Below, one piece after another: positions 1 through 29,665 of a stretch of 38,593 nt of DNA. The translations under genes and the position numbers were made by a program. Origin of the DNA: Bacteroidota bacterium (GTDB lineage: Bacteria > Bacteroidota > Bacteroidia > Chitinophagales > BACL12); assembly GCA_029571985.1 (NCBI GenBank), contig JAKQVC010000102.1, positions 1-38,593 on the forward strand, given 5' to 3'. How positions within the stretch are numbered: position 1 is the stretch's first letter; every line of letters begins with the position of its first letter. Below the pieces are notes generated by a model. That model made no database searches, had not been told where the DNA came from, and saw only the letters and a list, made by a program, of their open reading frames with translations.

Positions 1-122
1 GCTATGAAGTGAATTTTTGCGCAGCGAAGCGGAGAAAAGATTCTACTTCATAGGTGAGTGCCTGCTATGAAGTGAATTTTTGCGCAGCGCAGCGGAGAAA
101 AGATTCTACTTCATAGGTGAGT
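1..122. repeat. Two tandem palindromic (hairpin) repeat units
   Basis: Two copies of a 59-base unit lie at 1-59 and 64-122, separated by 4 bases and differing at one base (27 versus 90). Each unit starts with GCTATGAAGT and its right part carries ACTTCATAG. The 9-base arms are perfect inverted repeats and continue inward with one bulge and one mismatch, giving a stem of roughly 17 pairs around a GC-rich loop (GCGCAGCG...). No T-run follows, so these do not look like simple terminators. The first unit begins at the window edge, so more copies may lie upstream. Confidence 0.8.
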
Positions 123-257: not shown

Positions 258-360
258 AAAAGAAGACGGGTGATTTTTAGCGTTTTAGACGAGGCGCACG
301 AGGACGAGAGTTGTGAGCATGCTGGTGCATGTGATTAACTCGAGATTGAAGTGTAGCGAT
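258..360. repeat. Direct repeat copy 1 of the porP-end element
   Basis: Positions 258-344 match 415-501 almost base for base (offset 157), and similarity decays over 345-360. This copy lacks the right inverted arm found at 521-543. Instead its left flank (243-256) pairs with 261-280, making a local hairpin: CTAAAAAT and CTTCTT against AGAAG and ATTTTTAG. Apparent reading frames here encode the same short peptide twice, which is a by-product of the duplication rather than a gene. Confidence 0.75.
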
Positions 361-414
361 ACACATCACTTATTTACTTTCGCGCACAAAGTGCTGCTAA
401 AAAAAAGCCAATTG

Positions 415-543
415 AAAAGAAGACGGGTGATTTTTAGCGTTTTAGACGAGGCGCACGAGGACGAGAGTTGTGAGCATGCTGGTGCATGTGATCAACTCGA
501 GGCCGAAGTGCAACGAAGTATAAAACGCTAAAAATCGCCCGTC
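415..543. repeat. Direct repeat copy 2 with 23-base inverted arms
   Basis: This copy carries near-perfect 23-base inverted arms at 422-444 and 521-543. The one mismatched position would be a G-U pair in RNA. The 76 bases between them are partly self-complementary (the GTTG...CATGC side against GCATG...CAAC), so the whole 120 bases can fold into a long imperfect hairpin. The right arm touches the stop codon of the PorP/SprF gene (TGA read from 544 to 542). On the minus strand the element would form the 3' end of that mRNA, so it could act as a terminator or stability element. No transposase is nearby. Confidence 0.75.
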
Positions 544-1570
544 AGAAGCGAGGGCAATCGATTGGCTTTTGTTTTGGAGATGACTCCAAACAACCCCAAT
601 AGATAAACGACAATTCAATACCGCCACGATAATTAGTAACCGTAGACAGTCCTGAAATATTGATATCATAACTCAGGCCAAAATTCACATTTCCATAATC
701 CAGTCCGATGTTTACGATCATAGCATCAGCCACATCGATATTATCAACCGAACGGTAATGTAATCCGGCGTAAGCCATACTTACACCTTTTTCCAATTGA
801 AAGCCAACGTCAACACCTGAATTCATTTGCACGTTAGAACCTTCTGTTTGTTCCATGTAGAGGAAAGAAGGAATTAACACTGTGTTTTTACCCATGCCTA
901 TTTTAAACGAAGCATATCCGATATAATGTGCATTCAGTCGGTTAACGTTATAGTTATAGAAAGTTTCAATAGGTTCAGTAACGTGGAAATAAGCACCGCC
1001 CATTTGCAAAGCAAATTTGTCGCTAAAACGGCTTCGCCAGTTAATACCGGCATTCATGTCGAAATAAGATAAGTTGTCAGCACCGTACTCACCACTTGGT
1101 AAGGTTGGATCAACACCATTGGTACCAATTTGCGATTCGAAAATCAGCTTGGTATAATCCACACGTTTTTGAACGATACCCAATTGTGTACCTATAGAAA
1201 TAAAATGGTCTTCACTTCCCAGATTTTGGTGGTAGGCAAAGGAACCCATTATGGTCATATTTGAGAGTGATCCATCTCCGGACACGTCATTATAAATCAT
1301 ACCACCGACGCCGATGATATTACCATCCAGTTTATTTCTCCAAAGACCGGCGTCAAAGGAACCGCTGAAGGTTTGATAGGATGCTGGTCCTAAGGCACTT
1401 GCCCACTGATTACGGTAGTTCAGAACGCCACGGTACGTACAAGGGGTAAGTCCTGTAAGGGCTGGATTGAGCGTTAAGGGCGACTGCGCGTATTGGGAAA
1501 AGTGTATATCCTGCGCGTTTGCCATCAGCGCAGAGCCTAGGAGGAGGAATATGGCGAGGGCTCTTTTCAT
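542..1570 (-). CDS. PorP/SprF family type IX secretion outer-membrane protein
   Basis: This 342-residue protein has a clear signal peptide (about 1-20, ending MANAQ) followed by the usual PorP/SprF opening, with DIHFSQYAQSPLTLNPALTG visible at about 21-40. The rest is beta-strand-rich with alternating aromatic residues, as expected for an outer-membrane barrel. It ends in CPRF, an ending I recall as common in this family. Family members work with the T9SS; the founding SprF is needed to export the gliding adhesin SprB, and genomes often carry many paralogues. Here no sprB-like gene is adjacent and its downstream neighbour is a repeat element. A consensus promoter lies just upstream. The family call is firm; the specific partner is unknown. 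Confidence 0.9.
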   Translation of the reverse strand: MKRALAIFLLLGSALMANAQDIHFSQYAQSPLTLNPALTGLTPCTYRGVLNYRNQWASALGPASYQTFSGSFDAGLWRNKLDGNIIGVGGMIYNDVSGDGSLSNMTIMGSFAYHQNLGSEDHFISIGTQLGIVQKRVDYTKLIFESQIGTNGVDPTLPSGEYGADNLSYFDMNAGINWRSRFSDKFALQMGGAYFHVTEPIETFYNYNVNRLNAHYIGYASFKIGMGKNTVLIPSFLYMEQTEGSNVQMNSGVDVGFQLEKGVSMAYAGLHYRSVDNIDVADAMIVNIGLDYGNVNFGLSYDINISGLSTVTNYRGGIELSFIYWGCLESSPKQKPIDCPRF

Positions 1571-28930: not shown

Positions 28931-29041
28931 ATCGGCTTTTTTTCGAGGCCGGGGAGGCTGGAAGACGGGGAGTTTTAATGTTGGTTGGAATATTCTGCTG
29001 GTTTGCGTGAAAAAAAATTACGACAGAAAATCGCAGTTAGC

Positions 29042-29225
29042 GAACCTCACCCCCTGGCCCCCTCTCCATGAATGGTAGAGGGGGAATTGTTTTTGATAAA
29101 AAAATAATTCTTACCGCCTTCCAGTCTTCCCGGCCTCGAAAAAAAATCTAATTAAAACGAAAAAGCAGTTTCATTTAAAAGTACTTGAATTAATTCTGCG
29201 CGCATCTGCGTAAATCTGCGGGACA
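29042..29225 (+). repeat. Long intergenic direct repeat, copy 1
   Basis: This unit of about 184 bases resembles 29371-29556. It starts with GAACCTCACCCCCTGG, contains a palindrome with CCCCCTCT...AGAGGGGG arms around CCAT/ATGG, then the CCGGCCTCG motif followed by a run of A, and ends with three spaced CTGCG blocks. Confidence 0.75.
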
Positions 29226-29370
29226 CCTGGGTTCGGGTTTGTGTAGAGTGTTTGTTGAACAGGTAAGACGGTGAGGCGGTAAGGTTCGGGAAGTTTACAC
29301 GGGCAGTGTTACTCTGCGGCTCTGCGGCTCTGCGTGAAATGAATTGGGATGATTTGTAGATGCTTGTGTT

Positions 29371-29556
29371 GAACCTCACCCCCTGGCCCCCTCTCCATGA
29401 ATGGTAGAGGGGGAATTAATTTTTGATAAGAAAATATAATTCTTACCGCCTTCCAGCCTCCCCGGCCTCGAAAAAAAATCTGATTAAACAAAAAAGCTAT
29501 TTCAAGTGCAAACACCTGCATTAAATCTGCGATATCTGCGTACATCTGCGGGAGAC
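29371..29556 (+). repeat. Long intergenic direct repeat, copy 2
   Basis: This is the second unit, about 186 bases, with the same order of parts as 29042-29225: the palindromic CCCCCTCT/AGAGGGGG hairpin, TTACCGCCT...CCGGCCTCG, an A run and spaced CTGCG blocks. The first 100 bases are nearly identical between copies; the later part is more diverged. Confidence 0.75.
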
Positions 29557-29665
29557 ACGGTTAGTATTTTTAAAATAAATACTTCATTACTACACATTCC
29601 TTTATCGAAGCGTAGTGGTTAATGCACGAGGCCGGGGAGGCTGGAAGACGGGAAGTATAATGCAA

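Follow-up and report, generated by a model that had tools for sequence, protein, structure and literature searches.

ERIC (enterobacterial repetitive intergenic consensus) elements have served as a fingerprinting target for gut bacteria for decades, and both their origin and their role are open questions. Also designated IRU or RU-1, they are intergenic elements of 127 bp that fold into a single long stem-loop, lie at gene ends and occur in Enterobacteriaceae and Vibrionaceae. In the reviews and surveys consulted, this is the range given (PMC10969869, PMC2229807, PMC3696847, PMC3091717, PMC2267715, PMC2759123), ERIC being named for E. coli, Y. pestis and V. cholerae in one of these papers (PMC2267715). 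The same sources describe TA at the ends of ERIC and a TA target duplication (PMC2229807, PMC2759123) and, for Yersinia, an orientation-dependent change in transcript levels via an RNase E site where ERIC lies at a gene's 3' end (PMC10969869, PMC2229807). Our literature search, which covered few subscription papers, retrieved no paper that recognisably describes an ERIC-type element from a host outside these two families.

Two other groups of repeats invite comparison. GTAG- and CGTC-tagged REPs are palindromic, lie at gene 3' ends and between convergent genes, and the ends of GTAG REPs are reported to supply a stop codon in many cases (PMC3733652); they measure 20–40 bp and carry an unpaired tag (PMC3733652), whereas the element studied here spans 122 nt and its terminal CGTC is paired to GACG, so that it was not assigned to either REP class. 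Dispersed intergenic stem-loop repeats are also described in Bacillota and other groups, for example Bcr1 and Bhal-1 in Bacillus species (PMC2267715), and are alike as dispersed intergenic repeats, a likeness taken from their description.

ERIC itself has long been known; what appears to be new is the occurrence of ERIC-type elements in unrelated bacterial phyla, often on gene ends.

A tandem pair of palindromic elements at the end of a porP/sprF gene

The stretch of DNA analysed here (the window, 38,593 nt) is the whole of contig C189 of a 4.0-Mb, 282-contig genome (MAG). Close to its left end, a porP/sprF gene (positions 542 to 1570, minus strand) encodes a 342-aa product of the type IX secretion membrane protein family (Pfam PF11751, E 8.2e-39). 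An earlier note, made from the sequence of the window, had described next to this gene two copies of a palindromic element offset by 157 bases (258–344 and 415–501), and this description was borne out: a direct repeat of 115 nt, 90% identical and slightly longer than claimed, was located at positions 245–359 and 402–516. The inverted arms noted for the second copy (422–444 and 521–543) turned out to be the unbroken inner part of arms of 26 nt that are 92% complementary (left arm, 422–447; right arm, 518–543; plus strand). The intact second copy thereby comprises a single 122-nt hairpin (422–543), which covariance model R3 places at 420–543 on the plus strand, with its apical core TGAGCATGCTGGTGCATGTGAT at 471–492. 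The first copy (263–384, plus strand) has indeed lost its right arm, as the earlier note had proposed, and retains the left arm and the core; it is a decayed element that R3 recognises with 34.0 bits (E 1.2e-5). The element also ends on the porP/sprF stop codon, the right arm of the second copy overlapping the TGA (542–544) by two bases.

The alternative wording of the earlier note, a structured 3' untranslated region, proved apt as well, since the region is highly structured. The RNA fold of positions 422–543 has a z score of -10.8, none of 200 shuffles being equally stable, and the DNA fold a z score of -8.7; among 2498 intergenic fold windows covering both strands of 439 kb of this genome, the hairpin is the second most stable place. 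Very stable intergenic folds were considered as a peculiarity of this genome and were ruled out as such: folds below -60 kcal/mol were found in 48 of 508 windows from relatives, two of which are G+C-rich, versus 139 of 2498 here. Around the hairpin lies an outer stem (394–415 and 558–579, plus strand), the right half of which falls within the final codons of porP. When the flanks were shuffled, 7 of 5000 shuffles paired equally well and 14 of 300 gave an equally stable fold. In the porP sense this outer stem is followed by U8, corresponding to the A8 run at 399–406 in its left half.

The sequence AGAA flanks the hairpin on both sides (418–421 and 544–547) and is the only possible target duplication, 4 bp long, although it may be due to chance. 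If AGAA were a target duplication, the element may have completed the stop codon of porP.

Integron attC sites carry terminal RYYYAAC and GTTRRRY boxes. The terminal 7-mers of the window element are GACGGGT and GCCCGTC, and an attC identity was rejected.

The interval between porP and its convergent neighbour

In G001, a genome of the same genus, the porP ortholog is 84% identical and abuts a convergent gene stop to stop, the two stop codons being separated by 0 bases. In the window genome, contig C232 opens with the counterpart of this convergent gene, whose protein is 76% identical to that of G001 and belongs to the nitroreductase family (Pfam). The first ~240 bases of C232 consist of the same 63-bp palindromic repeat that fills positions 1–122 of the window. 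C189 and C232 are thus very likely neighbours, given the presence of this repeat at both contig ends and the gene order in G001. The tandem pair accordingly sits between convergent porP and nitroreductase-family genes, in a gap that was very likely filled with palindromic repeats on the lineage of the window.

The 63-bp palindromic tandem repeat, CTATGAAGT...ACTTCATAG, of which two units occupy positions 1–122 (plus strand), breaks the contig at that point. It gave 33 matches at E <= 0.001 in this genome and 0 in 19 relatives, further sites in the window genome (G000) being C232:1-229, C4:93228-93548, C245:78816-79094 and C282:5443-5630. No relation of this repeat to the element was shown (9.0 bits, E 4.8, with the ERIC model R2).

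Structure-aware searches reveal relatives of the element

In this genome BLAST returned only the two adjacent copies, an outcome that the earlier note had listed among those that would refute its reading. In 59 relatives BLAST found no copy of the element, the sole match (G038, E 0.007) being the coding end of porP. Likewise, an exact 23-mer of the window core had no match in GTDB genomes, and the 22-base family core had none in viral contigs. Rfam reported nothing in the window at gathering scores; at E up to 1, positions 1–600 gave one sub-threshold match, which lies outside the element, and five loci of G005, a genome of another genus of the same family, gave two matches, both far below the gathering scores of their families.

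R1, a covariance model whose sole input was the window hairpin, entered twice, nevertheless found relatives in another genome, so that the absence of a third copy by BLAST is too weak a test for refuting a dispersed element. In G005, R1 detected five full-length hairpins (E 2.0e-15, 3.2e-14, 1.5e-10, 3.2e-10 and 1.1e-8) and one partial hairpin, with a best whole-genome match of 73.7 bits. Including further nearby ones, the G005 hairpins measure 120–125 nt. A weak R1 match in G001 (E 0.025) was taken as chance and was absent with R3. Tandem copies recur, for example on G005 contig C371, where a tandem array of ERIC-type units lies within 800 bases (loci L109 and L111, C371:943-1736).

The G005 hairpins have in common the core GGAGCGTACNNNNGTACGTGAC, the counterpart of the window's apical core, and this is the core of ERIC. 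It occurs in at least 118 stretches of GTDB genomes, against an estimate of ~7 expected by chance. Our analyses used 80 listed loci of these at least 118 stretches; among the 80, 15 belong to Enterobacteriaceae as read from their titles, and the others listed include Porphyromonas, further Bacteroidales, Lysinibacillus, Sporosarcina, Shouchella and further Bacillales, together with clostridia, Verrucomicrobia, Vampirovibrio and a Coriobacteriales MAG. Several of the non-enterobacterial carriers are isolates. Selection by the exact core adds ~19 bits (L158) and therefore inflates the E-values of loci chosen in this way; the window and the R1 matches in G005 were not selected by the core pattern.

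A further covariance model, R3, was built from 37 diverse members, and its score for the intact window element (81.7 bits) is that of a model trained with the window. Within the same family, R3 at E <= 0.01 returned 26 matches in G005, two each in G003 and the window genome, and none in the three remaining genomes. Of 296 genomes sampled from the phylum, 36 had a match at E <= 1e-4, the window's own included, and 29 of these 36 belong to one other family. Taken as a claim about kind, the suggestion of a small non-autonomous palindromic element in the earlier note is thus supported, the window hairpin being one of a family of small, dispersed palindromes.

Relationship of the window element to ERIC

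The enterobacterial copies among the core loci are ERIC: the element at locus L190 has matches in 5376 of the 5426 complete E. coli genomes, with a median of 11 places per genome, and the consensus of 12 enterobacterial copies fits the published ERIC primers at 21/22 and 20/22 positions. A covariance model from these 12 copies (R2) scored positions 421–543 of the window, plus strand, at 43.0 bits (E 3.4e-9) with filters off; with default filters the window was missed, and the first copy was not found by R2. The same hairpin reversed scored 13.6 bits. An unrelated 122-bp hairpin of equal geometry, with 26-nt arms and a 70-nt loop, which was observed behind another gene of this genome (L084:10566-10687, contig C245 of G000) and served as a geometry control, scored 18.1 bits. 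The difference between 43.0 bits and these two values therefore stems from orientation-specific sequence and not from the shape of the hairpin. In the opposite direction, R1 gave 26–33 bits on enterobacterial ERIC, which is no better than its 29.6 bits on the unrelated hairpin; R1 does not reach ERIC, and this seemingly significant match was discarded as geometry.

In comparisons by sequence alone, none of 5000 structure-preserving shuffles equalled the window in its fit to the non-enterobacterial members, and none of 5000 in its fit to the G005 members; for ERIC alone, 93 of 5000 did. When the apical stem columns were retained, 47, 0 and 1212 of 3000 shuffles did so for non-enterobacterial members, G005 and ERIC alone, respectively; the first profile test, on ERIC alone with those columns kept, accordingly failed. 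A plain alignment between ERIC and the core of the window element was not significant, 4729 and 2288 of 20000 shuffles being as good, and the ERIC primers fit the window at 11/22 and 10/22 positions. Because these sequence-only links to ERIC are weak, we refer to the window feature as an ERIC-type element and not as ERIC.

The window element could be a terminator of porP of an ordinary kind that had grown by local inverted duplication through template switching, with no mobile family behind it and with a likeness to ERIC residing in hairpin shape. An outer stem that uses porP codons and leads into U8, the lack of BLAST copies elsewhere and the score that hairpin shape alone earns from R1 would all suit such an origin. 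We nonetheless regard it as very unlikely, in view of the strength of the R1 matches in G005, the strand specificity of R2, the failure of every structure-preserving shuffle to match the non-enterobacterial members as well, and the presence of a second tandem copy of the core without a right arm.

Measured against ERIC in the strict sense, the window hairpin of 122–124 nt is like it in size (~127 bp) and in forming one long stem-loop, in lying between genes at a gene end, and in the position and orientation of a core that an ERIC-only covariance model recognises with filters off. It differs in that its host belongs to another phylum, in that the primary sequence and primer sites of ERIC are not conserved, and in its ends, which are GACGGG and CCCGTC flanked by AGAA on each side in place of TA ends and a TA target duplication. 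The many dispersed copies typical of ERIC in E. coli contrast with two adjacent copies in the window genome, although G005 does have many (26 matches). With the non-enterobacterial members, on the other hand, the window hairpin has in common the core, the size and the paired arms. The link from the window to the G005 type is firm, that from the G005 type to ERIC is made through the common core and R2, and the direct link from the window to ERIC through R2. Overall, the window hairpin is with high probability a member of the ERIC-type family.

Arms differ from site to site and remain paired

Among 93 core sites, the window included, there are 71 different left arms. Pairing of left arms with their own right arms averaged 13.4, versus 5.9 for swapped arms, and the window scored 21; 39 of the 71 distinct arms exceeded the 99th percentile of swapped pairs, in a test that left out sites less than 75 nt from a locus end as well as L111, which is from the same stretch as L109. 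Within G005, where 18 of the 26 matches were taken, 14 of 18 arms were above the 99th percentile of swaps. In the alignment of 37 members, 23 of 29 predicted pairs showed changes on both sides. The arms of enterobacterial ERIC are conserved from copy to copy, unlike the site-specific arms found elsewhere in the ERIC-type family.

One orthologous element, at the L262 site, was present in 3 of 20 genomes of a genus, from three species. Between these genomes the element was 92.4 and 88.6% identical, and the adjacent gene end 85.8 and 79.6%. The fold of the element comprises 49 pairs, of which 4 had changed on both sides and 0 on one side only, and 2 of 147 cells were broken. This is the pattern that selection on the fold leaves, observed here for a single site in three sequences.

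A further G005 element, at L113, lies on the stop codon of a ribosome-recycling-factor gene and has arms like those of the window (CGGG..ATTTTTAGCGT / CGCTAAAAA..CCCG), as well as the same TC|A junction. Either the arms travelled with the element or the likeness is due to chance.

Element 3' ends are biased towards opposite-strand stop codons

The position of the window element on the stop codon of an opposite-strand gene is shared by many relatives. A stop codon on the opposite strand was located at -6 to +10 of the element 3' end in 36 of 147 full-length elements (TGA 14, TAA 13, TAG 9), the window among them, compared with 6 of 147 for the mirror case of a sense stop at the element 5' end (binomial p 3e-6, relatedness ignored). 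The 147 elements, from 122 loci, are those kept after 11 of 158 matches shorter than 111 nt had been dropped, and genes were taken as the longest ORFs of at least 100 aa, not from annotation; since related strains and tandem copies are included, the counts are not independent events. Runs of A were found at 39 of 125 5' ends, versus 16.0 after shuffling and 25 in windows 60 nt outside, and runs of T at 31 of 125 3' ends, versus 11.4 and 10, respectively, once elements less than 90 nt from a locus end and identical left ends had been dropped. These runs resemble terminators that work both ways, although A-runs are also common near the 3' end (25/125, vs 31/125 for T-runs).

Site-specific arms, A/T runs at the ends, location at gene ends and the outer stem of the window would also be explained if the element inserted into the loops of existing terminators, the arms being old terminator stems. 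This we consider quite unlikely. Of the 20 genomes with the L262 gene, 17 are without the element, and no palindrome with those arms was seen by eye in the upstream 200 bases, so that the single site examined lends no support to such an insertion, although traces of old stems may have been lost there because the relatives are distant (75–87% at the gene); at the site of the window, moreover, G001 has no room for a terminator. The spaces upstream of the L262 gene in the same genus (L291–L309) that have no element often hold repeats, such as runs of GTGGAC/GTCCAC, as judged by eye; this gene end thus gathers repeats, others filling the same space where the element is absent.

A neutral, selfish MITE-like passenger, found at gene ends since insertions elsewhere were lost and having no role for the host, is a less probable reading that nonetheless deserves real weight. 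Repeats of this sort usually occur in tandem copies and at gene ends, the copies of ERIC in Enterobacteriaceae have conserved arms, the L113 arms suggest that arms may travel, and the interval at the window is filled with unrelated palindromic repeats. Against it stand the compensatory changes at one orthologous site, with an identity above that of the adjacent gene, and the polarity towards opposite-strand stops, which mere avoidance of genes does not lead one to expect.

Proposed origin and role

The explanation that we favour, and hold to be probable, is that the window feature belongs to a widespread family of ~120–127 nt palindromes, of which ERIC is the enterobacterial branch, that it arrived as a mobile element and now forms a 3'-end hairpin. 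In this scheme a non-autonomous mobile palindrome would have arrived and settled at a gene end, as such elements appear to do, and would now serve the abutting gene as a 3'-end hairpin, possibly as an intrinsic terminator, as a determinant of mRNA stability, or as both, by analogy with ERIC in Yersinia. The chances that the element has a working role at the 3' end appear about even.

A more far-reaching reading, at evenly balanced odds, is that ERIC did not originate in enterobacteria and is a branch of an ancient family of structured elements found throughout bacteria, with a conserved core, site-specific paired arms and a fixed polarity on opposite-strand stops; its members would be working 3'-end structures, or elements whose arms are rebuilt at each site, and not inert repeats. 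If so, the working structures might be two-way terminators or switches of mRNA stability. Since one core hairpin recurs in several phyla, with arms that covary and a set position on stop codons, the origin and role of ERIC become a comparative question: orthologous ERIC-type sites from different species can be set side by side, and a role at the 3' end is open to tests in carriers that can be cultured, among them Lysinibacillus, Sporosarcina and Porphyromonas.

Other palindromic repeats in the genome

Long gapless inverted repeats numbered 3 in the window, 9 in 400 kb of this genome and 0 in 152 kb of relatives. A second palindrome-rich interval of the window, at positions 28937–29661, contains inverted repeats of 30–46 nt (CGAGGCCGGGGAGGCTGGAAGACGGG...), one unit of which recurs at positions 161–190. 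Elsewhere in the window genome, L080:215-378 and L085:13921-14350 contain long palindromes with TCATTGCGAGC...GAAGCAATCT, which resemble dimers of CGTC-type REPs.
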